Source: Acidihalobacter prosperus (GTDB taxonomy: Bacteria; Pseudomonadota; Gammaproteobacteria; DSM-5130; Acidihalobacteraceae). From it: 64,000 bases of DNA. The stretch covers positions 403,585 to 467,584 of the forward strand of contig NZ_JQSG02000002.1 in NCBI RefSeq assembly GCF_000754095.2, given 5' to 3'. The notes under the pieces were generated by a model. It had not been told where the DNA came from, did not search any database, and saw only the letters and a program-made list of their open reading frames with translations. Position numbers and translations under genes: made by a program. Positions 8,471 through 49,213 of the stretch are shown one piece after another (position 1 is the first letter of the stretch; every line of letters starts with the position of its first letter).

Positions 8471-8496
8471 GTCTCCCCCCCAGGTTCAGGCCCGGC

Positions 8497-9259: not shown

Positions 9260-9928
9260 ATGAGGATCGTACTCCTGGGAGCGCCCGGCTCGGGCAAAGG
9301 CACGCAGGGCCAGAAACTGGTCGAACGCTATGGCATTCCGCAGGTCTCAACCGGCGATCTGCTGCGCGCCGCGGTCAGCGACGGCAGCGCACTCGGCCGC
9401 GAGGCCAAGGGCTATATGGACGCAGGACAGCTGGTGCCGGACAGCGTCGTTCTCGGCATGATCCGCGAACGCCTGACTCGCCCCGACGCCGCCCGCGGCT
9501 ACATACTCGACGGTTTCCCGCGCAACCTCGTCCAGGCCGAAGCGCTCGACCAGATGCTTGCCGAAACCGGCCAGCCGCTGGATCTCGCGCTACTGATCGA
9601 CGTCGACATCACCACGCTCAAGCAGCGCCTGCTCGGGCGGCTCACCTGCAGCGCGTGCGGGGCAGTCTACAACAGCTACACCTCGCCGCCGCGGCGTCCG
9701 GGCGTGTGCGATCAATGCGGCGGCGAACTGGTGCACCGCGCCGACGACAACGAAGCGACCATCGACAAGCGCCTCGGCGTCTATGAAGCGCAAACCATGC
9801 CGCTGATCGAATACTACGCCGGCGACAACCGCCTGCGCCGCATCGCCGGCATCGGCGACATCGACACCATCTTCGCGGCCATCACCGCCGACATCGAAGC
9901 CAGGCTGTCCCAGCAGACGGGCCGCTAG
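9260..9928 (+). CDS. adk: Adenylate kinase with zinc-type (four-Cys) LID
   Basis: Interconverts ATP+AMP and 2 ADP. The P-loop is GAPGSGKGT at 7-15 and the AMP-binding part contains DGFPRN at 84-89. The LID (about 126-160) carries Cys130, Cys133, Cys150 and Cys153 as two CxxC pairs, the zinc-binding arrangement of many Gram-positive kinases; E. coli Adk lacks it. ATG 9260 follows an AGAGG about 10 nt upstream and gives 222 residues. It leads the lptD-surA-pdxA-rsmA gene set. Confidence 0.95.
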   Translation: MRIVLLGAPGSGKGTQGQKLVERYGIPQVSTGDLLRAAVSDGSALGREAKGYMDAGQLVPDSVVLGMIRERLTRPDAARGYILDGFPRNLVQAEALDQMLAETGQPLDLALLIDVDITTLKQRLLGRLTCSACGAVYNSYTSPPRRPGVCDQCGGELVHRADDNEATIDKRLGVYEAQTMPLIEYYAGDNRLRRIAGIGDIDTIFAAITADIEARLSQQTGR

Positions 9929-9973
9929 GCCGGTGCGGCACCTTTGCGACGGCGGGCCGCCCGCAACGTGCCG

Positions 9974-13499: not shown

Positions 13500-13503
13500 G
13501 CGC

Positions 13504-14499
13504 GTGAACCCGGCACCACTGGCGATCACCCCCGGCGAACCCGCCGGGATCGGCCCCGATCTGATCGCGCAGCTCGCACAGGTCCGGCGCTGCGACGACT
13601 GGGTCGCCGTCGCGGCGCCGGACCTGCTCGCACGCCGTGCCGAGCGACTCGGCCTGCAACTCGATCTGCAGATCGTCGAACCCGACATGCCGCTGCCGCC
13701 GGCACGCAAGGGCGCGCTGCGCGTGCTGCCCGTGCCGCTGCGACGCATCGAAACGCCCGGCCATCTCGACCCCGGCAATGCCGGCTACGTGCTCGACACC
13801 CTGCGCGAGGCCATCGACGGCTGCCTGCGCGGGACGTTTTCCGCCCTGGTCACCGGGCCGGTCCACAAGGGCGTCATCAACGATGCCGGCATCCCCTTCA
13901 GCGGGCACACCGAATTCCTCGCGGAACGCTGCGGCGGCGTCCATCCCGTGATGCTGCTCGCCGCCGGCAAGCTGCGCGTCGCGCTCGCCACCACCCATCT
14001 GCCGCTCGCGGAAGTCAGCGCCGCGATCAGCGCCGACAGGCTGACGCGCGTACTGCGCATCCTCGATCACGACCTGCGCGCCCGTTTCGGCCTCGCACAC
14101 CCGCGCATTCTGGTCTGCGGGCTCAACCCCCATGCCGGCGAAGGCGGCCACCTCGGGCGTGAGGAAATCGACACCATCGCCCCGACCCTGGAATCTCTGC
14201 GCACCGAAGGCCTGAACCTCGTCGGTCCACTGCCGGCGGATACCCTGTTCACGCCGCGGCACCTGCCCCATGCCGATGCCGTGCTCGCCATGTACCACGA
14301 CCAGGGGCTGCCGGTCCTCAAATACGCCGGCTTCGGCGAAGCCGTGAACATCACCCTCGGACTGCCGATCGTACGTACCTCGGTGGACCACGGCACCGCG
14401 CTGGATCTGGCGGGCAACGGGCGGGCCCAGAGCGGCAGCCTGGCGGCGGCCATCGATCTCGCCGCCGTGCTGGGCGCGCGCGCGACCGCGGCCGCATGA
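13504..14499 (+). CDS. pdxA: 4-hydroxythreonine-4-phosphate dehydrogenase PdxA
   Basis: NAD-dependent step of the DXP-dependent pyridoxal-phosphate pathway. The GTG start at 13504 lies 4 nt after surA. Family motifs include [11 protein letters not shown] near the N-terminus, [28 protein letters not shown] (metal-binding His) and [19 protein letters not shown]. The 331 residues match the family. Its stop overlaps the rsmA start by 4 nt, the common surA-pdxA-rsmA order. Confidence 0.96.
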
Positions 14500-15293
14500 G
14501 CCACGTCCCGCGCAAGCGCTTCGGGCAGCACTTCCTGCACGACCACCAGGTCATCGAACGCATCGCCGCGGCCATCGCGCCCCGCGCCGAGGACGCCCTG
14601 ATCGAGATCGGCCCCGGCGAAGGCGCACTGACCGCCGCACTGCTGGCGCGCATCGACCGTCTCGATGCGGTGGAGCTCGATCGCGACCTGGTACCGCGCC
14701 TGCGCACGCGTTTCGGCGGTCGTCTCGACGTGCACGAGGCGGATGCACTGCGCTTCGACTTCGCCGCCCTCGCACCGGCACAGGGGCTGCGCATCGTCGG
14801 CAATCTGCCGTACAACATTTCCACTCCGCTGATTTTCCATCTGCTCGAAGCCGCACCGCACATCCGCGACATGACCTTCCTGCTGCAGCGAGAGGTCGTG
14901 CAGCGTCTGGCCGCCACGCCCGGCAGCAAGCCCTACGGCCGGCTGTCGGTGATGGTGCAGTACCGCTGTCGGGCCGAGTCCCTGTTCGAGGTCGGCCCCG
15001 GCGCCTTCACGCCGCCACCGAAGGTCGATTCCGCACTGGTACGCCTGACACCCTGGCCGGCCCCGCCCCACCCGGCGCAGGACCCGCGCCTGTTCGCCCG
15101 CTTGGTCGAGCAGGCCTTTTCCCAACGCCGCAAAACCCTCGGCCGGGCGCTGCGAGGCCAGGTCGAGGCCGAAGATTTCGCGCAGGCCGGCATCGATCCC
15201 GTACGCCGGGCCGAAACGCTGTCGGTAGCCGAGTTTGTCGCCCTCGCCAACACAGCTCGAACTCGCACGGCCATCGGCAGTCCTAGTTCTTAG
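14496..15293 (+). CDS. rsmA: 16S rRNA (adenine1518/1519-N6)-dimethyltransferase
   Basis: Dimethylates two adenines in the 3' terminal helix of 16S rRNA late in 30S assembly. [11 protein letters not shown] opens the protein, the SAM site is [10 protein letters not shown] and the catalytic motif is NLPYNIS. The 265 residues match the family. It ends the surA-pdxA-rsmA run; about 100 nt separate it from tal. Confidence 0.97.
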
Positions 15294-15392
15294 GACGCGC
15301 GCGACATCTCGGCAGCCGACGGACCGCAATCGCCGGCAACCGCGACACGCAGACTGCTAGACTTGCAGCAACCACCTGTCAGGGAGGCACGC

Positions 15393-16520
15393 ATGTCGAA
15401 CCCCACTCCGCCCAATGCGCTCGCCGAACTGGGCCAAAGCATTTGGCTCGATTACATCCGCCGCGACCTCATGAGCTCCGGCGAATTGCAGCGCATGGTG
15501 AGCCAGGAAGGGCTACGCGGCATGACCTCCAATCCCGCCATCTTCGACAAAGCGCTGTCAGAAGGCGGGCTCTACGACGCAGCCCTGGTCGAGGCCTACC
15601 GCAGCGACCCGCAACTGACGCCCCAGGAACTCTTCTTCGCCCTCGCGGTGGAGGACATCCGCGCCGCCGCAGATCATTTCGCCGACGTCTATCGCGCCAG
15701 CGGGCGTCGCGACGGCTTCGTCAGCCTGGAGGTTTCCCCCGAGCTTGCCCACGATGCCGACGCCACGGTCAACGAGGCGCTGGCGCTGCACAATCGGGTC
15801 AATCGTGCCAACGTCATGATCAAGGTGCCGGCCACCCGCGCAGGCCTGCAGGCCATTCGCCACCTCACCGAAGCGGGCATCAGCATCAACGTCACCTTGC
15901 TGTTCTCCGTGTCGCGCTATGCCGAAGTGGTCGAAGCCTATCTCGACGGCCTGGAAGCCCGCCTGGATCGCGGCCTTGCGCTGGGCGGCATCAGCTCCGT
16001 CGCGAGCTTTTTCGTCAGTCGAGTCGACAGCCTCATCGACGACCGTCTTGCGGAGCACCCAGCCCCCGAGGCGCAGGCCCTGCAAGGCCGTGCCGCCATC
16101 GCCAACGCACAGCTCGCCTATGCCCATTTCCTCGTCGTCGCAGAGAGTCCCCGCTGGCGACGTCTCGCCGAGGCCGGCGCCAACCCGCAGCGCCTGCTGT
16201 GGGCCAGCACCAGCACCAAGAACCCGGACTACCCGCCCCTGCTCTACGTCGATGAACTGGTCGGCGCGCAAACCGTGAACACCCTGCCGCCGGCCACCTA
16301 CCGCGCATTGTTGCAGCGCGGCCAGGCGCCCGTCGCCACGCTGCCGGGCGACGTCGACGCCGCGCGCGAAGCCGTTTCGCGCCTCGCCGAGTTCGGCATC
16401 GACCTGCCAGCGGTCACCGACCGACTCGAAAGCGACGGCGTGGCAGCCTTCGCCGACGCATTCCAGCACCTGCTCGGCGGCATTGCGGCCCGCCTCGACC
16501 GCATCAAGGCCGATGCATGA
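15393..16520 (+). CDS. tal: Transaldolase (long, 375-residue form)
   Basis: Pentose-phosphate enzyme exchanging dihydroxyacetone units between sedoheptulose-7-P and glyceraldehyde-3-P. The Schiff-base lysine is in [15 protein letters not shown] near residue 50 and [11 protein letters not shown] in the C-terminal half are signatures of the long transaldolases also found in actinobacteria and cyanobacteria. ATG 15393 has AGGGAGG 5 nt before it. It overlaps pgl by 4 nt, so tal-pgl-glk form a sugar-phosphate operon. Confidence 0.94.
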
Positions 16521-17248
16521 AGGATGGTGCCCGCTGCCACACCCTCGCGGACGCCGACAGGCTTTACGCCGCCGTCGCCGACCGGGTAATCGCGCTGGCC
16601 GAGTCGGCCGTTGCCGCACGCGGCCGCTTTCACCTGGCCCTTGCCGGCGGCAACACCCCGAGACGCCTCTACGAGCGCCTGGCCGCGCGTGACGACACCG
16701 ACTGGAACCGTTGGGAAATCTGGTTCGGCGACGAGCGCTGCGTGGCGCCGGAACATCAGGACAGCAACTACCGCATGGCACGCGAAACCCTGCTTGCGCA
16801 TGTCCCCATTCCGGCCTCGCAGGTCCATCCGATGATCGCGGATCCAGCGATCGCACCGGAGCGCGCGGCCGCCGACTATGCCGATGCACTGAGCGCGCAT
16901 CTGCCGCAGCAGGCCGGCTGGCCGATACTCGACGCCGTGCTGCTGGGGCTCGGCCCCGACGGGCACACCGCCTCGCTGTTCCCCGGCACGCCCATCCTGG
17001 ACGTGCTGGACACGCCGGTCGCGGCGGTCCATGTGCCGCGCCTGTCCGCCTGGCGCATCTCGCTGACGCTACCGGTGCTGGCGCACGCGCGTCACCTGCT
17101 GTTCGTGGTGGAAGGCGCCGGCAAGAGCGACGTGCTGGCACGCCTCGCGCGCGGCCCCGCCGCCGGCGAGCCGCCGCTGCCGGTCGAGCGCGTCTCGGGA
17201 CCACGCGCCGAGTGGTATCTCGATGCGGCCGCGCGGGGCAGCGCATGA
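16517..17248 (+). CDS. pgl: 6-phosphogluconolactonase (DevB type)
   Basis: Hydrolyses 6-phosphogluconolactone in the oxidative pentose-phosphate/Entner-Doudoroff route. [33 protein letters not shown] and [15 protein letters not shown] are the family motifs. The 243 residues match. It is coupled by 4-nt overlaps to tal and glk. No zwf (glucose-6-phosphate dehydrogenase) is visible nearby. Confidence 0.95.
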
Positions 17249-18261
17249 GGTTGCTGGCCGGCGACATCGGCGGCACCAAGACCTTTCTGGTGCTCGCCCG
17301 CTTCGACGAGGAGGGCGGCATGGAACGCCTGCACGAGGCGCGCTATCCCAGCGCGGCACATGCGGATCTCGCGCCCATGGTCTCCGATTTCCTCGCCACC
17401 GCCCCTAGCGGCCCGCAGCGCATCGACGCCGCCTGCTTCGCGCTTGCAGGCCCGGTTCAAGACCAGGGTGGACACCAGCAGGCCCGCCTCACCAACCTGC
17501 CCTGGCAGCTCGACAGCGAACGCCTCGGTCGCGTCCTCGACATCCCCTACGTCGCCCTGATCAACGACTTCGCCGGCATCGGCCACGGCCTGCCGACTTT
17601 GTCCCCCGATGCGCTTGCGACGCTGCAGGCGGGTCTCCCTGATCCTGCCGCGCCACGCCTGGTGGTCGGCGCCGGCACCGGGCTGGGCGTGTGCACGCTC
17701 TGTCCTGTCGGCAACGGGCCGCCCCGCTTGCTCGCGGCCGAGGCCGGTCACGCCAATTTCGCGCCGGCAGACGCGCGCCAGCTCCGCCTTGCCGAACACG
17801 TCCTCGCCCGCGAAGGCCGCTGCACACGGGAACATCTTCTGTCGGGCGCGGGCCTGCGGCGCGTCTATGAATTCGTCTGCGCCGAAGCCCATCGCCCTCC
17901 CGGACCCGCCCTCGCCGCCGGCGATCCACCCGCCGCGATCGCTGGCGCGGCGCTGGCCGATACGGACCCGCTGGCCGCCGACGCGCTCTCGCTGTTCGTC
18001 GCAATCTACGCCGGCCAGACCGCCGACCTCGCACTCGCCGTGCTGCCCTTCGGCGGCGTCTATCTGGCGGGCGGCATCGCTCCCAAGATACTGCCGCGAC
18101 TGCGCCAGCCCGACGTCGTCGCCGCCTTCACCGACCGGCCGCCCATGCAGGCGCTGCTTGACGCAATGCCCCTTCACGTCGTGCTCGACGAGCATGCCGG
18201 TCTCGCCGGTGCGCTCGAATACGCGCGTCGCCTGGCAGCGGCGGGCGCTGACAAGAGTTAA
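17245..18261 (+). CDS. glk: Glucokinase (bacterial Glk, ROK-unrelated family)
   Basis: ATP-dependent phosphorylation of glucose. AGDIGGTKTFLVLARF at the N-terminus is the phosphate-binding loop and VVGAGTGLGVC the second ATP motif. The catalytic Asp is in LINDFAGIGHG. The ATG at 17245 overlaps the pgl stop, giving 338 residues. In a presumed sulfur autotroph this set may serve glycogen turnover; that role is inference. Confidence 0.93.
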   Translation: MRLLAGDIGGTKTFLVLARFDEEGGMERLHEARYPSAAHADLAPMVSDFLATAPSGPQRIDAACFALAGPVQDQGGHQQARLTNLPWQLDSERLGRVLDIPYVALINDFAGIGHGLPTLSPDALATLQAGLPDPAAPRLVVGAGTGLGVCTLCPVGNGPPRLLAAEAGHANFAPADARQLRLAEHVLAREGRCTREHLLSGAGLRRVYEFVCAEAHRPPGPALAAGDPPAAIAGAALADTDPLAADALSLFVAIYAGQTADLALAVLPFGGVYLAGGIAPKILPRLRQPDVVAAFTDRPPMQALLDAMPLHVVLDEHAGLAGALEYARRLAAAGADKS

Positions 18262-18282
18262 GACCGCGACCGGCGGTGCCGG

Positions 18283-18288
18283 TATAAT
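18283..18288 (+). promoter_or_regulatory. Candidate -10 hexamer just upstream of apaG
   Basis: A perfect TATAAT ends 6 nt before the apaG ATG in the 33-nt glk-apaG gap. No good -35 is seen at 17 nt and there is no Shine-Dalgarno before apaG. If used, transcription would begin near the ATG and give a leaderless apaG message. Confidence 0.4.
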
Positions 18289-18294
18289 GGCCCC

Positions 18295-18678
18295 ATGACG
18301 ACGACCCCAGACTATGCCATCGAAGTGGATGTGGAGACCGAATACCTGTCCGGCGAATCCGACCCGGCAGGCAACCGCTACGTCTTCGCGTACACCATCA
18401 CCATCCTTAACCGCGGCGTCCATCCCGCACGCCTGCTCTCGCGCCACTGGCTGATCACGGATGCCGACGGCGCGATTCAGGAAGTACGCGGCCCCGGCGT
18501 GGTAGGCGAACACCCGTATCTGCGCCCTGGCGAAGCCTTCCGCTATACCAGCGGCACCCAGCTGCCCACCGCGGTGGGCAGCATGCAGGGCAGCTATCAG
18601 ATGATCGCGGACGACGGCACCCGCTTCGACGCCACGATCGAACCCTTCGTGCTCGCGGCGCCGCGCACCCTGCACTGA
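18295..18678 (+). CDS. apaG: ApaG domain protein (Co2+/Mg2+ efflux-associated)
   Basis: Fibronectin-III-like beta-sandwich protein of 127 residues. YAYTITI-like strand (FAYTITILNRG), RHWLITDADG and GEHPYLRPGEAFRYTSG are the family core motifs. ApaG is tied to Co2+/Mg2+ homeostasis genetically, with no proven enzymatic activity. It normally lies between rsmA and apaH; here tal-pgl-glk are inserted before it and a methyltransferase after it. Confidence 0.93.
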   Translation: MTTTPDYAIEVDVETEYLSGESDPAGNRYVFAYTITILNRGVHPARLLSRHWLITDADGAIQEVRGPGVVGEHPYLRPGEAFRYTSGTQLPTAVGSMQGSYQMIADDGTRFDATIEPFVLAAPRTLH

Positions 18679-18683
18679 CCGCC

Positions 18684-19286
18684 ATGTCGCTGCGTGGCGC
18701 CTACACTCTTTGGGCTCCCGTCTACGATGCCCTGCTGGCCAGCGGCACGCACGCGCTGCGCGCACGCAGCCTCCGGCGACTCGGCTCGCAAAGCGGGCGT
18801 GACATTGTCCTGCTCGGCATCGGCACCGGTCTAGACCTGCCCTCCCTGCCGCCCGGTAACCGCTATACCGGCATCGACCTCACGCCAGCGATGCTCGCCC
18901 GCGCAAATCGGCGCGCGCAGCGGCTGGATCTGTCGATTTCGCTACAACTCGGCGATGTCCATCGACTCGACCTGCCCGACGCCAGCTTCGACGCCGTGAT
19001 CCTGCATCTGATACTGGCCGTGGTTCCCGACCCCGTCGCCTGCCTGCGCGAGGCCGCGCGCATCGCCAGGCCCGACGCGCCGCTGCTGATCCTCGACAAA
19101 TTCCTCAAGCCCGGACAAGCGGCGCCGCTGCGGCGGCTGATCAACCCGCTGATGCGACGCCTGGCCACGCGCACCGATGTAGTCTTCGAGGCCGTGCTTG
19201 CCCAGGTACCCGGGCTGCGCCTCCTCGAAGACCGCCCCGTCGCCGCCGGCGGCTGGTTCCGCGAAATCACCCTGGAGCGGCGCTAG
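18684..19286 (+). CDS. Class I SAM-dependent methyltransferase (UbiE/PmtA-like)
   Basis: Rossmann-type methyltransferase of 200 residues. The SAM motif I is LLGIGTGLDLPSLP (about 42-55), then an acidic residue in TGIDLTPAML and motif II-like FDAVILHLILAVVPDP. N-terminal LWAPVYDALL resembles UbiE and phosphatidylethanolamine N-methyltransferases; the substrate cannot be decided from sequence. It sits 5 nt after apaG and abuts apaH, so it is co-transcribed with them. Confidence 0.85.
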   Translation: MSLRGAYTLWAPVYDALLASGTHALRARSLRRLGSQSGRDIVLLGIGTGLDLPSLPPGNRYTGIDLTPAMLARANRRAQRLDLSISLQLGDVHRLDLPDASFDAVILHLILAVVPDPVACLREAARIARPDAPLLILDKFLKPGQAAPLRRLINPLMRRLATRTDVVFEAVLAQVPGLRLLEDRPVAAGGWFREITLERR

Positions 19287-20126
19287 ATGGCCGTGTACGC
19301 CATCGGTGACCTGCAGGGCTGCCTCGACCCGCTGCAGGCCCTGCTCGAACGGTTGCGTTTCGACCCCGCCGCCGACCGGCTGTGGCTGGTCGGCGATCTG
19401 GTCAACCGGGGGCCGCAGTCGCTCGAAACCCTTCGTTTCGTGCGGGCCCTAGGCGAGGCCGCGGTGTGCGTGCTAGGCAATCACGACCTGCATCTGCTTG
19501 CCCTGGCAGCCGGCGTCGGCACCCTGCGCCGCGGCGACACCCTGCAACCGGTGCTCGACGCGCCGGATGCGGCCGAACTACTCGGCTGGCTGCGTCTGCG
19601 CCCCCTGCTGCATCACGACACCGCACTCGGCTGGACCCTGGTACACGCCGGCCTGCCACCCGAGTGGGACGTGCCGCAGGCACGCGCCCGCGCCGCGGAG
19701 GTCGAGGCCGAACTGCGCGACGCACCCGCAGCGCTATTCGAGCACCTTTACGGCGACCAACCCGACCGCTGGTCGGAGACGCTCGGCGGCGCGGCGCGAC
19801 TGCGCTTCATCGTCAACGCGCTGACCCGCATGCGCTACCTGGACCCTCAGAGACGCCTCGACCATCGCTGCAAGGACGCGCCAGGGGCGGCAGCAGACGG
19901 ACTCACACCCTGGTTTCGGGTCGCCGGTCGCCGCAGCGTCGATGCGCGCATCGTCTTCGGTCACTGGTCCACGCTGGGACTGATCAACGAGCCCCACCTC
20001 GTCGCACTCGACACCGGCTGCGTCTGGGGCGGCACGCTCAGCGCGGTGCGCCTCGACGCCCCTCACCGCCCGCTCACCGCCATCCCCTGCCCTCAGGCCC
20101 ACCGGCCCAATGGCGGGGCACGCTAA
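19287..20126 (+). CDS. apaH: Symmetrical bis(5'-nucleosyl)-tetraphosphatase
   Basis: Metal-dependent phosphatase that splits Ap4A to two ADP and can decap Np4-RNA. Metal-binding motifs are GDLQGC, GDLVNRG and GNHD, with later conserved HAGLP and FGHWS. The 279 residues match the family. It starts directly after the methyltransferase stop (TAG ATG) and is the last chromosomal gene before the integrated element. Confidence 0.96.
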
Positions 20127-20228
20127 CCGAAAACACCTGAATCCGGAAGCAGCGTCACTCAGCGGGAAATACGCGCAAGACATCCGATGCCTCGCCGAAA
20201 ATCAACCGAAACGTCGCCCCAGAAACAC

Positions 20229-20257
20229 AAAAGGCCTACCGGTCAAGGTAAGCCTTT
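20229..20257 (-). terminator. Displaced original terminator of tRNA-Arg
   Basis: Arms 20230-20240 and 20247-20257 pair with one G-U. On the minus strand the hairpin is followed by a T-rich run (TTTTGTGTTT). It lies just beyond the truncated tRNA-Arg 3' piece, so it is probably the terminator that served tRNA-Arg before the element inserted. Confidence 0.65.
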
Positions 20258-20266
20258 CATCAAATA

Positions 20267-20316
20267 ATGGCGCGCCCGGAAGGATTCGAACCTCCTACCA
20301 CCTGGTTCGTAGTCAG
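20267..20316 (-). repeat. Left attachment site: truncated tRNA-Arg 3' piece
   Basis: A 50-bp copy of the tRNA-Arg 3' region (anticodon loop through CCA end) matching 29209-29258 at 48 positions. The sequence then diverges, so the tRNA 5' half is missing here. It is the remnant left when the element supplied a fresh 3' end to the functional gene. Confidence 0.9.
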
Positions 20317-20431
20317 TAATTTACCTGTTTCAGACAACATCAGCCAATCCCAATAAACAGTATATCTAGTTGATTTATATAGGTTAGAAATATCAACCCA
20401 TCTCAGCTAGAATCACCAAAACTCAAGCCAA

Positions 20432-20471
20432 GTGTAACCCAAGGTGTAACCCAAGAATGCCTGGGTTACAC
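20432..20471. repeat. Left subterminal GTGTAACCCA repeats
   Basis: GTGTAACCCA occurs twice in direct orientation (20432 and 20444) and once inverted (20462-20471). The 22-bp block 20432-20453 is repeated exactly at 29132-29153 near the other end. The subterminal placement suggests arm-type integrase or excisionase binding sites. Confidence 0.7.
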
Positions 20472-20481
20472 ATCTAGTCCA

Positions 20482-20539
20482 TACGTATACGTAAACATAT
20501 AGGTATACGTATAGGGCTACGTATAAGGCGCTACGTATA
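20482..20539. promoter_or_regulatory. Four TACGTATA repeats upstream of integrase
   Basis: TACGTATA starts at 20482, 20506, 20518 and 20532, ending 24 nt before the integrase ATG. Spacings are 24, 12 and 14 bp, roughly one or two helical turns. This fits cooperative binding of a regulator or directionality factor controlling int; the binder is unknown (the element's AlpA protein is one candidate). Confidence 0.6.
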
Positions 20540-20563
20540 GGGGCTACCTGTAGGAAGACTGGC

Positions 20564-21898
20564 ATGGGCAAACTGAACGCGAAGGTGGTACAGAACGCCA
20601 AACACAGCGGGCCGGGATTCGCCACCCTGCGTGACGGTGACGGGTTGGAGTTGCGTGTCAGGGCCTCGGGCACGAAGACCTGGTTCTTGCGCTATCAGTT
20701 CCAAGGTCAGCGCCGTGTACCGCGCATCGGCGACTACGGAGACGGAGAAGGCCTCCTCACGCTCAAGCAGGCGCGAGACGTGGCCGAGGACATGCGCCGC
20801 AAGCTGCGCGAGGGTGTCGACCCTGTCGAGGAACAAAAACGCATCGACGCCGAGCGCAAAGCCGCCGAGGAAGCCGAACGCGCCCGCCTTGAGGCTGAAC
20901 GCCTAGCGCTGGAGAACCGACGCACCTTTGCGAAGGCTTTGGACCGCTGGGCAGAGCTGGAGCTATCCAAGCGCAAGGACGGCGGCGCGGAGAGCCTGAG
21001 AGCGCTTCGCAAGGACGTAGTACCGGTATTGGGCAATCGCACGCTCACCGAAGTCGGTCGGGGCGATGTGGTCGACATTCTGGACAGCATCACCAGCCGT
21101 GGGTCGCGGATCATGGCAAACCGTGTGTTCGGCGACCTGCGCCAGTTCTTCAACTGGTGCGATACCCGCGAGTGGATCGACCGCAACCCGCTGCGCGGCA
21201 TTACCAAGGAGCGCATCGGCGGACGCGAAACGGAGCGTGACCGCGTCTTGTCACCGGATGAACTGGTGGAACTGCGCGACAAGCTGCCGAGCGCGAATTT
21301 GGAACTCCAAACCGAGGCCGCGATCTGGATCATGCTGTCAACGCTCTGCCGAGTCGGCGAACTGATTCAAGCTCAATGGGCGGACGTGAACTTTGAGGCA
21401 AGCACGTGGCGGATTCCGCCCGGCAACAGCAAGAACGCCCGCGAGCATCTCGTTTACCTATCCCCTTTCGCCCTGCGCTGGTTCAGAGCCTTGCACAAGC
21501 GCACGAAGTGGAGCGACTGGGTGTTGCCGTCCGTACTCAAGGACGGCGAGCACGTTTGCCTCAAGAGCATCACCAAGCAACTGCGCGACCGGATGCGCGA
21601 CACCCCCATGAGCAACCGCACCAAGGCCACGGGGGCGCTGATCCTGAGCGAGGGGACATGGACGGCGCACGATTTGCGCCGCACGGGCGCAACGCTCATG
21701 GGCGAGCGCGGCGTTCTGTCCGAGATCATCGAGCGCTGCCTAAATCATGTGGAACCGAGCAAGATCCGCCGCACCTACCAGCGTCACGAATACAAAGCCG
21801 AGAAGCGCGATGCCTGGGAACGCCTGGGTGCGTATCTGGATGAACAGCTCAATGGCACCGCGCGCATAGTCGTGAACATCGGCGAGGCGATCAGATAG
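20564..21898 (+). CDS. Tyrosine recombinase/integrase, P4 type
   Basis: Catalyses site-specific insertion of the element at tRNA-Arg. The 444 residues comprise an N-terminal DUF4102-like arm-binding domain (about 1-90), a charged coiled-coil linker (about 90-120), a core-binding domain (about 120-220) and the catalytic domain. Visible catalytic residues are Arg263 (LCRVGEL), Lys290, His369-x-x-Arg372 (HDLRR), His395 (LNH) and probable nucleophile Tyr405. The frame is intact, so the protein may be active. It is the gene nearest the left att site, far from the intact tRNA. Confidence 0.95.
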   Translation: MGKLNAKVVQNAKHSGPGFATLRDGDGLELRVRASGTKTWFLRYQFQGQRRVPRIGDYGDGEGLLTLKQARDVAEDMRRKLREGVDPVEEQKRIDAERKAAEEAERARLEAERLALENRRTFAKALDRWAELELSKRKDGGAESLRALRKDVVPVLGNRTLTEVGRGDVVDILDSITSRGSRIMANRVFGDLRQFFNWCDTREWIDRNPLRGITKERIGGRETERDRVLSPDELVELRDKLPSANLELQTEAAIWIMLSTLCRVGELIQAQWADVNFEASTWRIPPGNSKNAREHLVYLSPFALRWFRALHKRTKWSDWVLPSVLKDGEHVCLKSITKQLRDRMRDTPMSNRTKATGALILSEGTWTAHDLRRTGATLMGERGVLSEIIERCLNHVEPSKIRRTYQRHEYKAEKRDAWERLGAYLDEQLNGTARIVVNIGEAIR

Positions 21899-21953
21899 CG
21901 CCAGAGCACAAGACAACACCGTACAACCAAACCAATATCGATAAGGACAGGTC

Positions 21954-22850
21954 GTGGATGGCAACAAGGCAGGCACCAAGGGACGCATTGAATGCACGCA
22001 GGACGGTGACGAATGGGTAGCGCGTGACCTGGACACGGACGAATGCGCTTACGGTGGCACCCAAGCCGAAGCCCTCCTTGAACTCATTACCCAGAAGAAG
22101 CATGCATGGAATCAGTCGCAAATTTCGCCAGCACCCCAAACTGACGGCGCGCTATCCCAAGAGGCACAACTGAGGGACGACATATCCCAGATGTTTCGGA
22201 CAGGGCGAGCTGCCATTGCGGATATCAAACAGATTCAGAAGCAGATGGCAGCGGACGGTCCAGGGGTACTCGCCGTTAATACGACATTGCGGCGACACTT
22301 CACCCAAATCTTCCGCATGCAAGCGCTTGAAGATGCGCTTTTGCTCTCGGAAACGAAAGATGCGGCCATCATGAACCTGCTGCTGATCAACGTGCTCGTG
22401 CTCAGCACAACGGTTTCGATATTCACGATACCAAGCCTGATGATCGCCACACAGGCTATCTCTTCCGAAGAACAAACCCTCATCAATGGGATAAAAAGCT
22501 ACCTCGACTCCCTCACCGCGGTGCCGAATATCCTGGTGAACGAGCCGTTTGCGCAAAATAGGAAGAATCTTGAGGCCACAGTGGCCACGCATGAGAAGCA
22601 ACTCGAATTTGCTCAAAAGGTCCTGAACTCCCCCCTTGGCACAGCCGGGAAGCTGGCTACTCGGGGAGGCGCAGCTAAAAACCCGGAAGGGGCCGCACGC
22701 GGCGCGCTGATACGTGCCCTAGATCAATGCATTCCGCCCAGCTACAGCAGCGAGCATGGTTACAACCGCTTTGCTCTGATCAAACAGCTCCTGGGCATCG
22801 CACGCATCGAGGCCAGTCCTGCCCTGATCCGACGGCTGATATATGGCTAA
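21954..22850 (+). CDS. Element-encoded protein of unknown function, one hydrophobic segment
   Basis: 298 residues from GTG 21954, preceded by AAGGACAG. I do not recognise the family. The first 45 residues (RIECTQDGDEWVARDLDTDE) look like a small beta-rich domain. Residues about 138-168 form one long hydrophobic stretch (NLLLINVLVLSTTVSIFTIP), probably membrane-inserted. The rest is helical, with possible coiled coil around 195-220. It lies between integrase and alpA, where accessory or regulatory genes occur. Whether it belongs to the element core or its cargo is unclear. Confidence 0.7.
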   Translation: MDGNKAGTKGRIECTQDGDEWVARDLDTDECAYGGTQAEALLELITQKKHAWNQSQISPAPQTDGALSQEAQLRDDISQMFRTGRAAIADIKQIQKQMAADGPGVLAVNTTLRRHFTQIFRMQALEDALLLSETKDAAIMNLLLINVLVLSTTVSIFTIPSLMIATQAISSEEQTLINGIKSYLDSLTAVPNILVNEPFAQNRKNLEATVATHEKQLEFAQKVLNSPLGTAGKLATRGGAAKNPEGAARGALIRALDQCIPPSYSSEHGYNRFALIKQLLGIARIEASPALIRRLIYG

Positions 22851-22904
22851 ACAGTAAGCCGCCCTCGCGCCTTGCCAACTGTTTAATCGCCTGTAGGTAA
22901 ACAG
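22848..22904. promoter_or_regulatory. Three TAAACAG/CTGTTTA motifs upstream of alpA-like gene
   Basis: TAAACAG occurs at 22848-22854 and 22898-22904, and its reverse complement CTGTTTA at 22879-22885. The last two form an inverted repeat with 12-nt spacing in the 136-nt gap before the AlpA-like gene. A second short inverted repeat (TGACTC at 22957, GAGTCA at 22977) overlaps that gene's ribosome site. These look like operators. Confidence 0.4.
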
Positions 22905-22986
22905 AAAATCCAATCAATCCGCCCGCTTCGCCTTACCAAAGGTGGCAATGACATGCTGACTCTACAACATCAACTGGAGTCAACGA

Positions 22987-23172
22987 ATGCAAAGCCATCG
23001 CATCATCCGTAACAAGGCCGCCTGGAACTATCTGGGTATTTCTTCGAGTACCTACTGGCGCTTGATCAAGGCCGGCGAACTGCCCGCTCCTGTGCAAATC
23101 TCCAAACAGGCCTCCGGACAACCCGAGCATGTGCTGGTGTCCTTCATCGAACGCCGGGCAGGTGCCAAATGA
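22987..23172 (+). CDS. AlpA-family DNA-binding regulator/excisionase
   Basis: 61-residue MerR-like winged-helix protein of the AlpA/excisionase superfamily: AAWNYLGISSSTYWRLIKAGELPAPVQI is a helix-turn-helix plus wing. In P4 and CP4-57 elements AlpA controls integrase expression and excision. A GGAGTCAACGA precedes the ATG, and the stop overlaps the next gene by 4 nt, coupling it to the RepA-like ATPase. Confidence 0.85.
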   Translation: MQSHRIIRNKAAWNYLGISSSTYWRLIKAGELPAPVQISKQASGQPEHVLVSFIERRAGAK

Positions 23173-24299
23173 GTCGAGGGCTGGCGCAGATAGATCAAAA
23201 TTCCGAACTAGAACTGATCAACGCATCCAGCATTCAGCCTGAGCCGATTGACTGGCTGTGGCCCGGTTGGCTGGCACGCGGAAAGCTGCACATCCTCGCT
23301 GGCGCACCGAGCACTGGAAAAACAACGCTCACGCTGGCCATGGCTGCGATCATCACACGCGGCACAGCATGGCCGGATGGAGCACCTACGGCTCCTGGCC
23401 GCGTTGTCATCTGGTCCGGCGAGGATGATCCTGCGGATACGCTCACCCCTCGCCTGCTGGCAGCCGGAGCCGATACGGAGCGAGTCCACTTCGTTGGCTC
23501 AGTGCATGAGGATAACGGCGCACGCACATTTGATCCGGCAACCGACGTGGGCAAACTCGCGGAAGCGCTCGCCAAGCTCCCCGAGCCCCCTGCTCTGCTG
23601 ATCGTGGACCCGATTGTGTCCGCTGTGGCCGGTGACAGCCATAAGAACGCTGAGACGCGCCGTGCCCTGGCCCCGTTGGTCAATCTGGCACAGCTTCAGG
23701 GCTGCGCCCTGGTCGGCATTACACATTTCACCAAGGGTACGGCAGGCCGCGAACCCTTGGACCGCGTGACCGGGTCGCTGGCATTTGGAGCATTGGCACG
23801 TATCGTACTGGTCACCGCGCGCCGCCCCGATGACCATCCTGAAGGGCCCGCGCGACTACTTGTGCGCGCCAAGTCCAATATCGGGATCGACGGTGGTGGT
23901 GTTCAGTACGAGATCGAGGAAACAGAACTCGCCCTGTATCCGGGCCTTTGCACCTCTCTTGTCCGTTGGGGCGACCCTATTGAGGGCACGGCGCGTTCGC
24001 TGCTCATATCGGCCGAGACGCTGTCGGACGACGGTATCGAAACACCCACTAGTGCACCGGAGAAGACGCGAGCCGAAACATGGCTGCGGGACTTTTTGAG
24101 CTCGGGCCCGCTGCCGTCCCAGCAGGTCATCAAAGAAGCCAGGCGCGAAGGTATCTCCGAACGGACGCTGCACCGAGCAAGGAACGCCCTCGGGGTCGAA
24201 AGCGTATGCACAGGGTTCGGCAAAGATCGCCAATCCAAGTGGGTCATGCCCAAAGGGACGTTCTCGGCATCTGTGCCAGCCATCTGCCAACAAAATTAG
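23169..24299 (+). CDS. RepA-like hexameric ATPase/helicase (AAA_25 type)
   Basis: 376-residue RecA-fold ATPase. WLARGKLHILAGAPSTGKTT carries Walker A (45-52), and ALLIVDPI (about 139-146) is Walker B; a conserved HFTKG follows in the core. The C-terminal 80 residues (SSGPLPSQQVIKEARREGIS, ERTLHRARNALG) resemble a winged helix. Such proteins are plasmid or island replicative helicases. Coupling to the AlpA-like gene and the repeat cluster directly downstream suggest it initiates replication of the excised element; that is inference. Confidence 0.85.
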   Translation: MSRGLAQIDQNSELELINASSIQPEPIDWLWPGWLARGKLHILAGAPSTGKTTLTLAMAAIITRGTAWPDGAPTAPGRVVIWSGEDDPADTLTPRLLAAGADTERVHFVGSVHEDNGARTFDPATDVGKLAEALAKLPEPPALLIVDPIVSAVAGDSHKNAETRRALAPLVNLAQLQGCALVGITHFTKGTAGREPLDRVTGSLAFGALARIVLVTARRPDDHPEGPARLLVRAKSNIGIDGGGVQYEIEETELALYPGLCTSLVRWGDPIEGTARSLLISAETLSDDGIETPTSAPEKTRAETWLRDFLSSGPLPSQQVIKEARREGISERTLHRARNALGVESVCTGFGKDRQSKWVMPKGTFSASVPAICQQN

Positions 24300-24417
24300 G
24301 GTGGCAGAGATGAGAACCATGGCAGAAATGGGTTCCTATGCGGGTTTCAGCCGGCAGGACTATTCAAAGCGGCCATGCCTGCCATCCGCCAATGTTTTGG
24401 AAAAGATGGCAGGCATG
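24284..24417. repeat. Five TGGCAG/CTGCCA motifs with a 12-bp inverted repeat (candidate origin)
   Basis: TGGCAG occurs at 24302, 24320 and 24407, and CTGCCA at 24284 and 24379. The last pair lies in a perfect 12-bp inverted repeat (24374-24385 with 24406-24417, 20-nt loop). The cluster spans the end of the RepA-like gene and the gap after it. Iteron-like placement beside a replication ATPase suggests an origin, or an operator of that gene. Confidence 0.45.
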
Positions 24418-24683
24418 AAATTTACGCCGTTTGATTTTATTAGCGTCGCGCTAACGCAACGAAATATAGAACCATTTCGGTTACTGGGTTTTGACAAACA
24501 CCCGTCTGGACTTCCCGTGGACCATCAGAAGCTCATCTCGAATAACGGCCCTACGATAGAGAGTCGCCACCTTTTTCAAACGACTGCGGCACATTTTGAC
24601 AAGAGACTGACCGCTAATGGTCGTCGAGATCAGAAACTGAATCCGATTGAGGACAGATCTCCGCAGTCTGTCCCCTTCAATGG
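24300..24683. other. Non-coding gap between RepA-like ATPase and PHP-ATPase gene
   Basis: The two flanking genes converge here. The first 120 bp hold the TGGCAG repeats; the rest is locally AT-richer. A plus-strand frame (24301-24858) is open, but it runs 175 bp into the PHP-ATPase gene and has no recognisable domain, so I do not call it. Confidence 0.6.
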
Positions 24684-27671
24684 TTATCGAATACTCACCC
24701 GCAAACGTTTGGCGCGCTCTTTGAAAGCTTGCTCTCCACCTTCAAGGATATCGCACACGTGCTGCCGGATGTGGGGGTTTTCGAGACCCCCGCTCTCATA
24801 CGTAATGAGCGGCAACTGTCCTTGTCTGTGCGGTCCGCACTTCGCCACGATCACCTGATCCGCATCGGTGTTCACCACCAAGTTGGCGTTGTGCGTAACA
24901 ATGATGATCTGGCGTCCCTTCTTAGCGTCTCGGAAGCGATGCACCAGCTCTTGATAGATGGACTGAGGGTCCAAGTTCTCCTCAGGTTGGTCGATGATCA
25001 GTGGTCGGTCATCTTCCGCATCGACTGCCAAGTACAGCAGGAGCAAAACAATACCGCGCGTGCCCGGTGACAACTGCTCAATCTCTACACCGTCATACTG
25101 CACTCCGTAGCCAACGGTGATGTGATCGGTGCTATACAGCCAGTCTGAAATATTGCGTGCCCAAGCGCGTAACTCAGCGTTCTCCGGCATGTGGGTTCGG
25201 AGCGCCCCCTCATTGTCCCTAACGAAACGGAGCAAGGCGGCTGCGGCTTCTTCAGCGTCACCGGATTCCCATGACGCCAGCAGTCCAATGCGTGCCGACT
25301 TAAGCAACTCGCCGCGCCCCTTGAAAGGACCGGCCGTCCGTAGGTCCAACAGTGCCTCTCCCTTGGCAGCCCACTGAGCAAGGTTGACCTTCCGACGCAC
25401 ATTGAACGACAGCTTCGACAAGGAGCCGGCCGCCTCGTCGATACGCGTCTTTATAGGCGCGTAGAGATTCGCAAGTTCCTGCTCTTCCTCAACGATTGCT
25501 TCAAAGATGGCGGTATATGAGCTGCGTCGCGCTTCGATCAGCGCGCGAATCCGCTCGTCTGCACCGTGAATGCGTTCGATCTGCCGGACCACGTTGCGTA
25601 GCGCGGTCTCGGACTTGGTGATCTTTTCCGAGAGCGTGGCGAAGCGTTTGGCGTTCTGTTCGTCGACACCAACCAACTTGCGCAGGCGAGCGAGCTCCTG
25701 CTCAAGGAGTGAGAGCGGCTGATCTTCCAGGTTGGCGTTCTCGGGAATCAACGCAACAGTCGGATCAACATTGGTCTGAGCCTCCGAACCTGTTCTCACA
25801 GGGCCGTTCAGCGCAGCCACAGCAACTTTCGCTTGTTCGATGCGTTCAGTCAGCAATGCGTCGACCGGGCCGGCATAATCGAGCCTGAAGGCTTCCCAGT
25901 CAGAGGCGCTGAGATCGGCGTCCTCGCGCAGTTGTTTCAGGTCTGCGAGCAGAGATGACGCCTGACGGGCTCGGAAATCGCGCACGTCGTTTTGCAAGTG
26001 AAGCAGGGTTTGGTGTCGGCGTTTCGCTTGGTCTACCAATTGTCGCTTCGCATCGACCGCGAGCGATACCTGTTCATGACGCCTCGCGCGCTCTTCGTTG
26101 CCCTTGGCAACCAGCGATTTGCGGTCGGTTTTGTCCTTGTTGATCGCACGCGCCTTCTCGTCCCGCTCCTTCTCGAGTGCCTTGAGGGCGTCCTTTTTAA
26201 CACGCTCGTCGGTGAGATCCGCTGATGCCTTGGTCAGGGCCTGTTGCTGACGCTCACGCTTCTGACGCGATGATTCCAAACGAAGGCCCAGAAACTCCTG
26301 GAAAGAAGTGGCGCCTTGTCGTTCATTGATTGGGTGGGCATTGAAGATCACCCGTTCGATCTCGGTGACCAACGCATCGTCCAAGCCTTCCGCTGAGCAG
26401 AGCTGGTCAACGAACTGCTGCGACAAATACTGGACATAAGGACTGGCCAGCATTTCCTCCATATCGGTCTGCGTAAGTTCATTGCCAGTTTGTTCACCAG
26501 ACGCCCATTGCAGTTCGGCTTTACTGTTCCCAAGGTATTCTTTCGCGCGCAGGATAAAGGAACGCTCGTTCAAGTGAGGGGAGAGAGCAAGACCGCCTGC
26601 CGCAATTAGATCAGCTAAGGCGGTTTTTCCGGATCCTCGCGCGCCGATTACGGCAACCAGCCCCGAGTTCAGCACAACGCAATCGTTCGCAATCCAAGGG
26701 GCATTCGCTACAGACAGAGACCTAATGGTCTGGCCGTCCAATGCGCCGCGCGGTGGCTCGGCGCCGACAAAAACGCGTTCTCCGGGTTCTATGCAGGCCT
26801 GGCGTAGCGCCTCGAACACTAGGTCTCCCTTGATCCATGAACGGCGATCTCCATCAGGCTGTCCGACCTTGCTGACGGAATGCGCATCGGAGCCGTGCAG
26901 GCAGGGCTTGCAGCCGTTGTACTGGCTTTCGAGTTCTTCGACGGTGAGTGAACCCTTGCCCAGCCAAAAGCGGATCTGCTGAGGATTGGCGCTGAAGATA
27001 ATTTGGGCAAGGCCCTCGACATTTTTTCGCTGCGCTGCGAACGAGGCGGTAGCGTCGCGCAGACCAGACGTCCCGTCCTTCTCTCCGCCGGCGACAGCGA
27101 TTAGTGTGTTCTTTTTAACCCACTCGTTTTTTGACAATGCCTGCTTGAGCTGGTCGAAGTTCACCTTGAACTGGTTGGCGCCTTCGGATCGGGCCGCATC
27201 GTCATCTGTCAGATCGGGGTTATGGGCGCGGCCCAGGCGAATCAGGTCGCTGCGCTGGCAGCGGTAGGACTCTCCCAAATAGATGAATTCAAACTCCAAC
27301 AGGAAACGTTTGATCCGGTCTACGTGGTCGACGTCGTGCGGTGAGAAGAGCAGGTGAATGTTGACTGCCGATGCCTTCCTCGTTTCGATGCCCAGTCGCA
27401 ATTCAACGTTGGGAAAGATCAAGCCGACCCCGGACAGACGCCCACGGTGCTTTTCGTTGACAACCTGCTCGTAGCCTTCAATGCCGAAGTAGTCGGTGAT
27501 CCCTATCGCACGAATCGGGGGGTTCGACGTTTCAATGGCGTCTAAGAACGCTGGCCAAGGATCCGAACCGGAATACTGATCGTTCAGAGCGGTGCCGGGC
27601 GTGTGGATGTGAGGGTCCCATCGATGCCAGACGGAGCCTCGTTCGCTTTGCACTTCGTATGATGTCTTCAT
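24684..27671 (-). CDS. PHP-domain/SMC-like ATPase fusion, candidate defence nuclease
   Basis: 995-residue two-part protein. Residues 15-300 form a PHP metallo-phosphoesterase domain: DPHIHT (His21, His23), GITDYFG (Asp60), NVELR (Glu90) and HGSDAH (259-264) supply metal ligands. Residues about 335-990 form an SMC/Rad50-like ABC ATPase: Walker A GARGSGKT (343-350), a long coiled coil (about 470-800), signature-like LSPGTRG (867-873), Walker B LIIDQPEENLD and switch His927 (VTHNAN). The architecture resembles proteins annotated as TrlF-family AAA-like ATPases. ATG 27671 has GGAG 5 nt upstream. Island location next to a HEPN gene suggests anti-phage defence (inference). Confidence 0.85.
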   Translation of the reverse strand: MKTSYEVQSERGSVWHRWDPHIHTPGTALNDQYSGSDPWPAFLDAIETSNPPIRAIGITDYFGIEGYEQVVNEKHRGRLSGVGLIFPNVELRLGIETRKASAVNIHLLFSPHDVDHVDRIKRFLLEFEFIYLGESYRCQRSDLIRLGRAHNPDLTDDDAARSEGANQFKVNFDQLKQALSKNEWVKKNTLIAVAGGEKDGTSGLRDATASFAAQRKNVEGLAQIIFSANPQQIRFWLGKGSLTVEELESQYNGCKPCLHGSDAHSVSKVGQPDGDRRSWIKGDLVFEALRQACIEPGERVFVGAEPPRGALDGQTIRSLSVANAPWIANDCVVLNSGLVAVIGARGSGKTALADLIAAGGLALSPHLNERSFILRAKEYLGNSKAELQWASGEQTGNELTQTDMEEMLASPYVQYLSQQFVDQLCSAEGLDDALVTEIERVIFNAHPINERQGATSFQEFLGLRLESSRQKRERQQQALTKASADLTDERVKKDALKALEKERDEKARAINKDKTDRKSLVAKGNEERARRHEQVSLAVDAKRQLVDQAKRRHQTLLHLQNDVRDFRARQASSLLADLKQLREDADLSASDWEAFRLDYAGPVDALLTERIEQAKVAVAALNGPVRTGSEAQTNVDPTVALIPENANLEDQPLSLLEQELARLRKLVGVDEQNAKRFATLSEKITKSETALRNVVRQIERIHGADERIRALIEARRSSYTAIFEAIVEEEQELANLYAPIKTRIDEAAGSLSKLSFNVRRKVNLAQWAAKGEALLDLRTAGPFKGRGELLKSARIGLLASWESGDAEEAAAALLRFVRDNEGALRTHMPENAELRAWARNISDWLYSTDHITVGYGVQYDGVEIEQLSPGTRGIVLLLLYLAVDAEDDRPLIIDQPEENLDPQSIYQELVHRFRDAKKGRQIIIVTHNANLVVNTDADQVIVAKCGPHRQGQLPLITYESGGLENPHIRQHVCDILEGGEQAFKERAKRLRVSIR

Positions 27672-27991
27672 CTGCTCCGGGGCGGGGGTCGGTTCTGCCC
27701 ATCAGTCTGTAGGTTGCGTCGAGTCGATAAAACTGAACTAGAAGATGAATGCTACCAAGAGCGCAAACTCAGGCGTTCTCTTGTAGCCACTCTAAGTCGT
27801 CTCGTTGCCCACTTCGTCTCTAGTCGCCCTCTCCTGCAGGTCGTGTGCCGATCATAGTTCCGTCCGCTCTAGACAGCAAAACACCCGGTTAACGATCCAC
27901 CTGAGCCGCAGCTTGCCTTAGAGCTCAGCGGAATTATCAGCCGCCGGGGTCAAAGCTGTGATCGGTCGGCTTGAAGAGTTGCTACCACACC
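27672..27991. other. Non-coding gap between HEPN and PHP-ATPase genes
   Basis: About 320 bp with no convincing open frame, tRNA or strong hairpin on either strand. It must hold the ribosome site of the PHP-ATPase gene and could hold its promoter, so the two minus-strand cargo genes may not share one transcript. Confidence 0.5.
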
Positions 27992-28699
27992 TTAAAGCGA
28001 TGCTCCTATGGCTTTTAGCCTGTCTGAGTACACACCTATCCGCATGCCCCCGGGTGTCGCGACCCGAAGGTACTTACCAATCGAATTAATGTTATTAGTG
28101 CCGATCTCAAGCCCCGAGTTCGTGCATGTCGGCCCAGTAACAAGAGCGCGAACCTTATTGTTCATGACTTTCCTAGAACTTGCACTGTTATGGGCAATGC
28201 AATTTCGGATAGCGTGCGCTGCATCGACTAGAGCCACGTCCGAAGCTGAGAGAGCGGAAAACGCCTTTTCATGAGTTGGCGCGAGCCACTCTTTAGCTCT
28301 TACTTGCATAGCCGCCACGTCTTTAAACGTTACATTCCAGCTGGTTGGATCAAGAAGATTTGAAAGTTGAGCGGACGCAATGTGCTTAGGACCGCTGAAG
28401 TTCGTGTGCGTTGCGTGCCAAGGCGAATACTTGTTACTTATAGAGTTTTTGATCTTTGATTCGATATTGGAGAGATATGTTTTGTTGCTGTTGTTTATAT
28501 AGCCATGGAAGAGATCTGAGACCAGACACTCAAACTCTACATAAATTGAGGCGAGATAGTTCTCGCACAGGAAGTTTAGATCTGAAAGCTCTGTTGGCGT
28601 GCCCATCACGTGCGCGACTAAGCGATCGAACGACGCGCGTTTGGCAGTGATGCGACCAGAGTAGTCAGAGATGATCTTCTTCGTGTTGATCTTATTCAC
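27992..28699 (-). CDS. HEPN-domain protein, probable RNase partner of the PHP-ATPase
   Basis: 235 residues from GTG 28699, chosen because GGGGAG lies 5-6 nt upstream; the frame stays open to 29011 but the upstream part looks random. Arg165-Asn-x3-His170 (RNCIAH) is the Rx4H motif of HEPN ribonucleases. The surrounding sequence is all-alpha, with a long helix at about 40-65, as in the RiboL-PSP-HEPN family. Codon use is AT-richer than the surrounding chromosome, a sign of transfer. HEPN proteins are common RNA-cleaving effectors in toxin-antitoxin and anti-phage systems; activity here is inferred. Confidence 0.7.
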   Translation of the reverse strand: MNKINTKKIISDYSGRITAKRASFDRLVAHVMGTPTELSDLNFLCENYLASIYVEFECLVSDLFHGYINNSNKTYLSNIESKIKNSISNKYSPWHATHTNFSGPKHIASAQLSNLLDPTSWNVTFKDVAAMQVRAKEWLAPTHEKAFSALSASDVALVDAAHAIRNCIAHNSASSRKVMNNKVRALVTGPTCTNSGLEIGTNNINSIGKYLRVATPGGMRIGVYSDRLKAIGASL

Positions 28700-29163
28700 G
28701 AGAGCTCCCCTGCATTGGTTGGCGGGTGACCTGAGCTCCGAGAGCCCCACCAGTTCCCTAGACATTTTCGAGGCGTACATAGTTTCCGCATTCAGAAACA
28801 GACGGTCTAATGACGTAATCGGACGAAGGATCAGTGCCCGCTGTTTGGCCGGAATAAGGCCTACCGCACATCTACGCGTGCGATGCATGATCGGCCTGTT
28901 AACCCTGGCGATGACTGGATAACCGAGGCGCCGGTCTCCCTTACGCTGAGTGATGCCCGCGATAGGCTGCTGGGGCAATGTTGTATGAGGAACGATAACC
29001 GTTGAGTTCAACTAGGTCGTAACACTTCACTTCCCAACGGCTCGGGGATCTGAATGAAGGTCATAGCGCCCGCACATGACGATGAGGCCTCAACGCTTCT
29101 GAGCCCCTAGCCAGGCCCTTACGTCCGCGACGTGTAACCCAAGGTGTAACCCAGAGAGTGTAG
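28700..29163. other. Non-coding right end of the element
   Basis: About 460 bp upstream of the HEPN gene. It contains the 22-bp subterminal repeat at 29132-29153 and presumably the HEPN promoter. An in-frame extension of the HEPN frame (28700-29011) lacks start signals and family-like sequence. No other gene is seen. Confidence 0.5.
29132..29153. repeat. Right subterminal 22-bp repeat
   Basis: Exact copy of 20432-20453: two GTGTAACCCA units 12 bp apart, 56 bp inside the right att site. It matches the left-end block in the same orientation, as expected for integrase arm or directionality-factor sites. Confidence 0.7.
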
Positions 29164-29200
29164 AAATAAAAAAGGGATTAGAGACGAAATCTCTAACCCC
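29164..29200 (-). terminator. Element-supplied terminator for the rebuilt tRNA-Arg
   Basis: Arms 29174-29184 and 29190-29200 form an 11-bp stem (one mismatch/G-U). On the minus strand it is followed by TTTTTTATTT (29164-29173). It lies 10 nt downstream of tRNA-Arg, so the element brought a replacement terminator. Confidence 0.8.
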
Positions 29201-29208
29201 TTGATTAT

Positions 29209-29258
29209 ATGGCGCGCCCGGAAGGATTCGAACCTCCGACCACCTGGTTCGTAGCCAG
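29209..29258 (-). repeat. Right attachment site inside tRNA-Arg
   Basis: 50-bp block shared with 20267-20316 (48/50). It covers the CCA end, acceptor 3' strand, T arm, variable loop and anticodon loop of the functional tRNA, defining the crossover region within the tRNA 3' half. Confidence 0.9.
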
Positions 29259-29286
29259 GTACTCTATCCAGCTGAGCTACGGGCGC
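29210..29286 (-). tRNA. tRNA-Arg (anticodon ACG)
   Basis: 77 nt including an encoded CCA. The acceptor stem GCGCCCG pairs with CGGGCGC. The anticodon stem CCTGG/CCAGG encloses loop CTACGAA, giving anticodon ACG, and the T arm contains GGTTCGAATCC. It reads CGU (and CGC/CGA after A34 deamination). It is the integration target of the adjacent element. Confidence 0.97.
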
Positions 29287-29354
29287 GTAAAGGTGGCGAA
29301 TTATGGTGAAGCTTTTCTTCGCCGTCAAGCTGACGCAATGTATCTATTTGTATA

Positions 29355-49200: not shown

Positions 49201-49213
49201 CCACGCTACGACA

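Follow-up and report, generated by a model that had tools for sequence, protein, structure and literature searches.

We analyzed a 64,000-nucleotide stretch of the Acidihalobacter prosperus genome (contig NZ_JQSG02000002.1, positions 403,585 to 467,584; hereafter the window), which carries a small integrative element, or island, with two neighbouring cargo genes: trlF, encoding a large PHP-SMC ATPase, and a gene for a small HEPN-type protein. The pair had originally been predicted to be a two-gene defence system. Our comparisons suggest that the island has probably joined two single-gene cargo units that form no conserved system, and that the adjacency of trlF and the HEPN gene is most likely chance company. 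The two genes and the DNA units that they share with other genomes are as follows (window positions).

24684..27671, minus strand: TrlF-family PHP-SMC ATPase, 995 amino acids (TrlF family model, motifs and structure model)
27992..28699, minus strand: HEPN-type protein, 235 amino acids, with a GTG start and an RNCIAH motif (motif, Pfam matches of relatives and fold comparison)
24526..27788, minus strand: unit common to a congeneric genome, G747; trlF and short flanks only, 82.9% DNA identity
27965..28726, minus strand: unit common to a contig locus, L009; HEPN gene with little flanking sequence, 83% DNA identity; on the upstream side it stops where an attC-like site of L009 ends

The two genes lie 320 bp apart on the same strand without overlapping, and they differ in GC content at third codon positions (GC3 0.538 for the HEPN gene and 0.655 for trlF). 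The TrlF protein of G747 is 85% identical to that of the window, and its gene has a HAD-type hydrolase on one side and an AIRS/HypF/HypD cluster on the other. Besides one distant 56-bp match, DNA similarity to G747 is limited to 24526-27788, and no match to our HEPN profile was found in the G747 genome. The HEPN protein of L009 is 90% identical to that of the window, and its gene belongs to a run of mostly same-strand open reading frames (ORFs), where it adjoins an ORF with a Phage_int_SAM_4 domain and a partial integrase match. DNA similarity to L009 is limited to 27965-28726, besides one 37-bp match elsewhere. The two shared units do not overlap. Since either gene can be found alone, and the DNA similarity stops a short way beyond it, we regard trlF and the HEPN gene as separate mobile units.

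In L009, the upstream edge of similarity (position 6841), a probable cassette junction, coincides with where one attC-like site (6765-6842) stops, and a second site follows the HEPN gene at 7580-7639. Both sites fold as bottom-strand hairpins (z -2.52 and -2.99); for comparison, two other L009 stretches gave z -3.99 and -0.37, and two window stretches z -0.17 and -0.81. We take these sites and hairpins to be features of an integron cassette. At the gathering threshold, Rfam returned only two tRNAs from L009 and the window. A relaxed attC scan of window positions 20201-29300 recovered no sites, so the window HEPN copy is at most a decayed cassette. The surrounding L009 array (2345-10544), of integron type with an integrase-domain ORF, is on a contig of a metagenome-assembled genome labelled Actinomycetes, a label that may be a binning error. 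The genome from which the window is taken also encodes an integron-type integrase (contig C3, 609572-610510; 474 bits), with no clear attC array beside it.

The original prediction had proposed co-occurrence of the two families across genomes as a check and had named a lack of conserved linkage as refuting it; in the loci sampled, this HEPN family and TrlF showed no such linkage. A tblastn search with the TrlF protein, which does detect distant TrlF proteins in other loci, recovered none in any of the 19 plasmid and genome HEPN loci or the seven viral ones (0 of 26). Reciprocally, the HEPN profile, which retrieved the window protein as positive control at 2e-87, had no match in 30 genome TrlF loci (G747 plus 29 of the 43 matches outside the window's own genome), in 13 plasmid loci (of 220 plasmid records with a TrlF match) or in 36 viral loci (0 of 79). 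The viral TrlF loci were all obtained with an alignment query, a single-protein query having found none. A relaxed HEPN profile search of 510 ORFs neighbouring TrlF, in a set of 78 loci of which 75 had a placed TrlF match, gave a best hit of only E 0.049. An R-polar-x3-H motif served to preselect 45 TrlF neighbours, of which 43 were scanned after dropping two L140 rows whose coordinates duplicated L138 rows. Among the families listed, none of HEPN type had two or more matching members; the list excludes 32 of the 57 matched families, each with a single member. This HEPN family occurs only in the window's own genome in both our phylum sample (1/398) and our class sample (1/369), so co-occurrence statistics over the 398 genomes are not possible. 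In the phylum sample, TrlF is present in 36 of 398 genomes, a count that includes the source genome of the window, and 28 are above the family cut-off. It is found on plasmids and islands in changing contexts, and AbiE, VapC and restriction genes are among the genes near it on plasmids. In Cupriavidus campinensis (NZ_CP043441.1; L113), trlF is broken into pieces that reach 73% identity to the window protein, and a HEPN relative is found on the same replicon, approximately 440 kb from the TrlF pieces; that relative lies outside the 19 HEPN loci, and L113 outside the relaxed neighbour scan.

By sequence, the large protein is a member of the TrlF family and not a new kind of protein. The match to TrlF_fam_ATP (NCBIfam NF045780) spans residues 10-989 of 994 and, at 711.8 bits, passes the curated cut-off of 350. 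The PHP part of the 995-residue ORF contains WDPHIHTP and HGSDAH, and the ATPase part contains GARGSGKT, LSPGTRG, LIIDQPEENLD and VTHNAN. The PHP residues H21, H23, E90, D262 and H264 and the ATPase residues G348, K349, S868, G870, D894, E897 and H927 are invariant in 19 aligned proteins, including distant ones (18 are from viral contigs). The motifs of both parts are also conserved in 17 aligned TrlF proteins, its own included, with one row lacking H21 and H23 since its annotated start lies later. The predicted structure (mean predicted local distance difference test score, pLDDT, 82.1; predicted template-modelling score, pTM, 0.66) matched chains that combine an SMC-type head and a coiled coil (MukBEF, E 5.8e-8; JetABC, E 1.3e-7; Smc and Rad50 chains were also matched) and the PHP domains of RNase AM (E 4.2e-4 and 6.6e-4) and of Pol III alpha (E 1.1e-3), with low whole-query TM-scores of 0.14-0.21 for the MukBEF, JetABC, RNase AM and Pol III alpha rows. 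A sequence search of the PDB returned three AriA sequences, all weak. Family match, motif conservation and structure model together confirm the predicted fusion of an N-terminal PHP phosphoesterase to an SMC/Rad50-like ATPase with a long coiled coil, as had been read from the intact motifs in the original prediction. An SMC-type head with a coiled coil is also found in MukBEF and Wadjet/JetABCD; unlike these, TrlF is a single polypeptide carrying a PHP domain, and no gene for a partner subunit was recognised among the island ORFs scanned.

Two known systems resemble the large protein. The first, trlF of the Photorhabdus temperature restriction locus (TRL) operon, from which NCBI presumably took the name of NF045780, has the same PHP-plus-ATPase layout, and the full-length match is far above the cut-off. 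The Photorhabdus operon also has trlR and trlG, whereas no trlG-like partner was recognised on the island of the window; none of the six island ORFs scanned had a RecG-like or AlbA_2 Pfam match, in a scan that did not use the TrlG sequence itself as a query. The second, Ppl (NCBIfam NF042955; PADLOC PDLC02208), likewise encodes a PHP part and then an ATPase within a single gene, going by the available part of its description, and shows significant similarity to the window TrlF. It was the top PADLOC match of the large protein (87.1 bits), with the strongest stretch in the C-terminal ATPase. According to the accessible text of the two publications, a 2026 review describes Ppl of E. coli as a one-gene, PHP-type 3'-5' exonuclease of single-stranded DNA that is held off by nucleoside triphosphates and activated by nucleotide depletion and 3'-OH ends (PMC12904381), and a genome-wide association study found a correlation between ppl and phage resistance in S. 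epidermidis (PMC13152194). This anti-phage protein is the nearest characterised relative of the window TrlF. The original prediction was aware of no characterised system with this exact pair; the large protein belongs to a named family and is related to a described one-gene system. TrlF itself is apparently little studied: in the literature searched, which does not extend to preprints and most subscription papers, we found neither a test of TrlF in defence nor a description of a TrlF-HEPN pair.

The small protein had been recognised as a HEPN neighbour from its RNCIAH motif, and motif and family make the assignment well supported. In the RNxxAH motif, R165, N166, A169 and H170 are invariant in 18 aligned sequences, its own included (the alignment omits L011, L022, the unfetched plasmid hit H3 and the viral relatives). 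The listed ORF is longer, with a TTG-started frame extending to 29011; we prefer the GTG start at 28699 because relatives align from the GTG. Relatives were found in six plasmid records, 14 genome loci and seven viral contigs (four of the viral ones with an identical score), and none in phage records at E 0.01. Two of the four relatives scanned pass the cut-off of HEPN_RiboL-PSP (PF18735; 28.4 bits), namely L007 (29.3 bits) and L008 (29.2 bits), while the window protein itself has no HEPN Pfam match, PF18735 included. Foldseek gave no significant match to its structure model (pLDDT 86.4), the best being translin at E 0.55. In structural alignment, the top four rows were MNT-HEPN toxins (Z 7.7-8.3), followed by the integron cassette protein 3jrt (Vpc_cass2; PMC3710099; Z 6.2 over 136 residues, root-mean-square deviation 5.0), although helical bundles reach such Z values without kinship. 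3jrt and the window protein are 11% identical in this alignment, and no attC was detected beside the window copy.

From its motif and family, the small protein would be an RNase, and what it serves bears on the second unit only. It could be a toxin working by itself, not in phage defence, to keep the element stable or to induce dormancy; this would be compatible with two independent cargo units, and we give this reading somewhat less than an even chance. It is in keeping with the occurrence of the relatives as a single gene in varied neighbourhoods, with the integron-type setting in L009 and with the best alignments of the model to MNT-HEPN toxins and also to 3jrt; integron-cassette HEPN proteins were proposed as stress RNases in 2013, in the available part of that report (PMC3710099). 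However, none of the scanned island ORFs was recognisable as an antitoxin, and relatives on plasmids near restriction-modification or Shedu genes would fit defence equally well.

We infer both biochemical activities, any anti-phage role and the lack of cooperation between TrlF and the HEPN protein. Most probably each protein works on its own. TrlF could act as a self-contained guard, its ATPase heads clamping DNA ends or abnormal DNA and its PHP nuclease being released on invading DNA, which it would degrade by analogy with Ppl. The HEPN protein, as a small RNase, could halt the cell or cleave transcripts of the invader, and its unit may spread as a single mobile gene, once seen in an integron-type array.

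The two-gene system of the original prediction would have the TrlF ATPase sense phage DNA and trigger the HEPN RNase as an abortive effector. The two genes are on the same strand, 320 bp apart on one small island, and HEPN domains are present in validated defence systems, as far as the accessible text of the report goes (PMC13092281). Linkage is lacking in all 26 HEPN and 79 TrlF loci, the genes belong to separate mobile units in G747 and L009, and their GC3 differs; we consider such a system very unlikely. It was rejected as the leading reading for want of linkage in the loci sampled, and the case shows how adjacency on an island can suggest a system that cross-genome comparison does not support.

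Several observations weigh against our preferred reading of two unconnected units. The TrlF and HEPN loci are samples, some of them near-identical (L010/L011 and L094-L097), and a number of HEPN contigs have one short flank (e.g., L021 and L013). On Shewanella baltica plasmid pS19501 (L111), two same-strand genes directly upstream of trlF (2119-2685 and 2798-3343) have weak, sub-cut-off HEPN-like hits (PF18735 at E 0.003 for one; DUF4145 at E 3.1e-4 and HEPN_Swt1 at E 0.0077 for the other), which also speaks for the two-gene system and makes a coupling of TrlF with other HEPN proteins possible. As for the cassette, purpose-written scripts found no attC site on the plus strand of L009 and one elsewhere on the minus strand under strict settings, and under relaxed settings two on the plus strand flanking the HEPN gene, one of them again on the minus strand, counts that prove nothing given that shuffled sequences have a mean of 0.5 attC-like sites per strand and up to 3. 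Because the site count is no higher than in shuffles, the integron argument for L009 rests on position, folding and the integrase-domain ORF. The similarity to Ppl is partial, at 109.8 bits against a curated cut-off of 1000, and the window TrlF is therefore not a Ppl. In Photorhabdus, the changes found in temperature-tolerant mutants affected trlG and not trlF, within the available part of the report (PMC7554251), so that no function of TrlF was shown there.

The pS19501 pair were the only HEPN-like TrlF neighbours seen in the scans made. It is a long shot that TrlF sometimes recruits an unrelated HEPN RNase from a mobile pool of single genes, here and possibly on pS19501, with the partner swapped in and not inherited. 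If true, RNA cleavage would form a second layer behind a PHP-SMC DNA guard, taking effect where the destruction of DNA had failed.

The Photorhabdus operon also raises the question of whether TrlF has a stress or regulatory role instead of one in defence, since trlR-trlF-trlG is induced by a temperature up-shift in the accessible account (PMC7554251). We regard this as improbable: none of the temperature-tolerant isolates had a mutation in trlF, no gene of RecG type, the annotation given to trlG, was recognised on the island, and the contexts of TrlF on plasmids and islands vary. Beside TrlF, the HEPN family, with members on plasmids, on viral contigs and in one integron-type array, offers a second small target for testing.

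The element that carries both genes has the following features.

20267..29258, unstranded: integrative element of approximately 8.94 kb (direct repeats 8942 bp apart, integrase, island-free site in G747 and, less fully, in G358)
20267..20316, unstranded: attachment (att) repeat, a partial copy of the 3' part of the tRNA-Arg; 50 nt, 96% identical to 29209-29258
29209..29258, unstranded: att repeat within the intact tRNA-Arg, 50-nt direct repeat
29210..29286, minus strand: tRNA-Arg (acg), the integration target (ARAGORN; Rfam RF00005)
20564..21898, plus strand: tyrosine integrase (PF00589, 1.1e-20; PF13356; PF22022)
21954..22850, plus strand: 298-amino-acid ORF, no family above cut-off in library scans
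22987..23172, plus strand: AlpA-type excisionase/regulator (PF05930, 9.4e-5, 22.7 bits against a cut-off of 21)
23169..24299, plus strand: AAA_25 ATPase of replication type (PF13481, 5.7e-39; phrog_10729, DNA polymerase/primase, 3.5e-27)

The original prediction had placed the genes on a tRNA island, and the att repeats, the intact tRNA, the integrase and the island-free site in G747 bear out an integrative element in tRNA-Arg. G747 lacks the island, and the two flanks of the window join there at the tRNA: the left one matches over 8865-20107 and, beyond a 1.36-kb unshared stretch, over 20221-20316, and the right one from 29194 onward. In G358, the right flank and 20221-20316 likewise join at the tRNA without the island, and the left flank beyond 20221-20316 was not found in the stretch compared. 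A composition scan of the window showed lower GC over the island. The two genes had been described as its only recognisable cargo; both are present, and the 298-amino-acid ORF is also carried. On the minus strand at 29077-28780 is a decayed gene remnant that opens with MCGRYDLHSDPRAVGK followed by a stop, with YNIAP in another frame; we take it to resemble a SRAP/YedK relative.

Elsewhere in the window, positions 44435-55567 encode two radical SAM proteins, a lipoyl ligase and a CCG-domain protein, an arrangement that we take to be reminiscent of an sHdr-type sulfur oxidation cluster.

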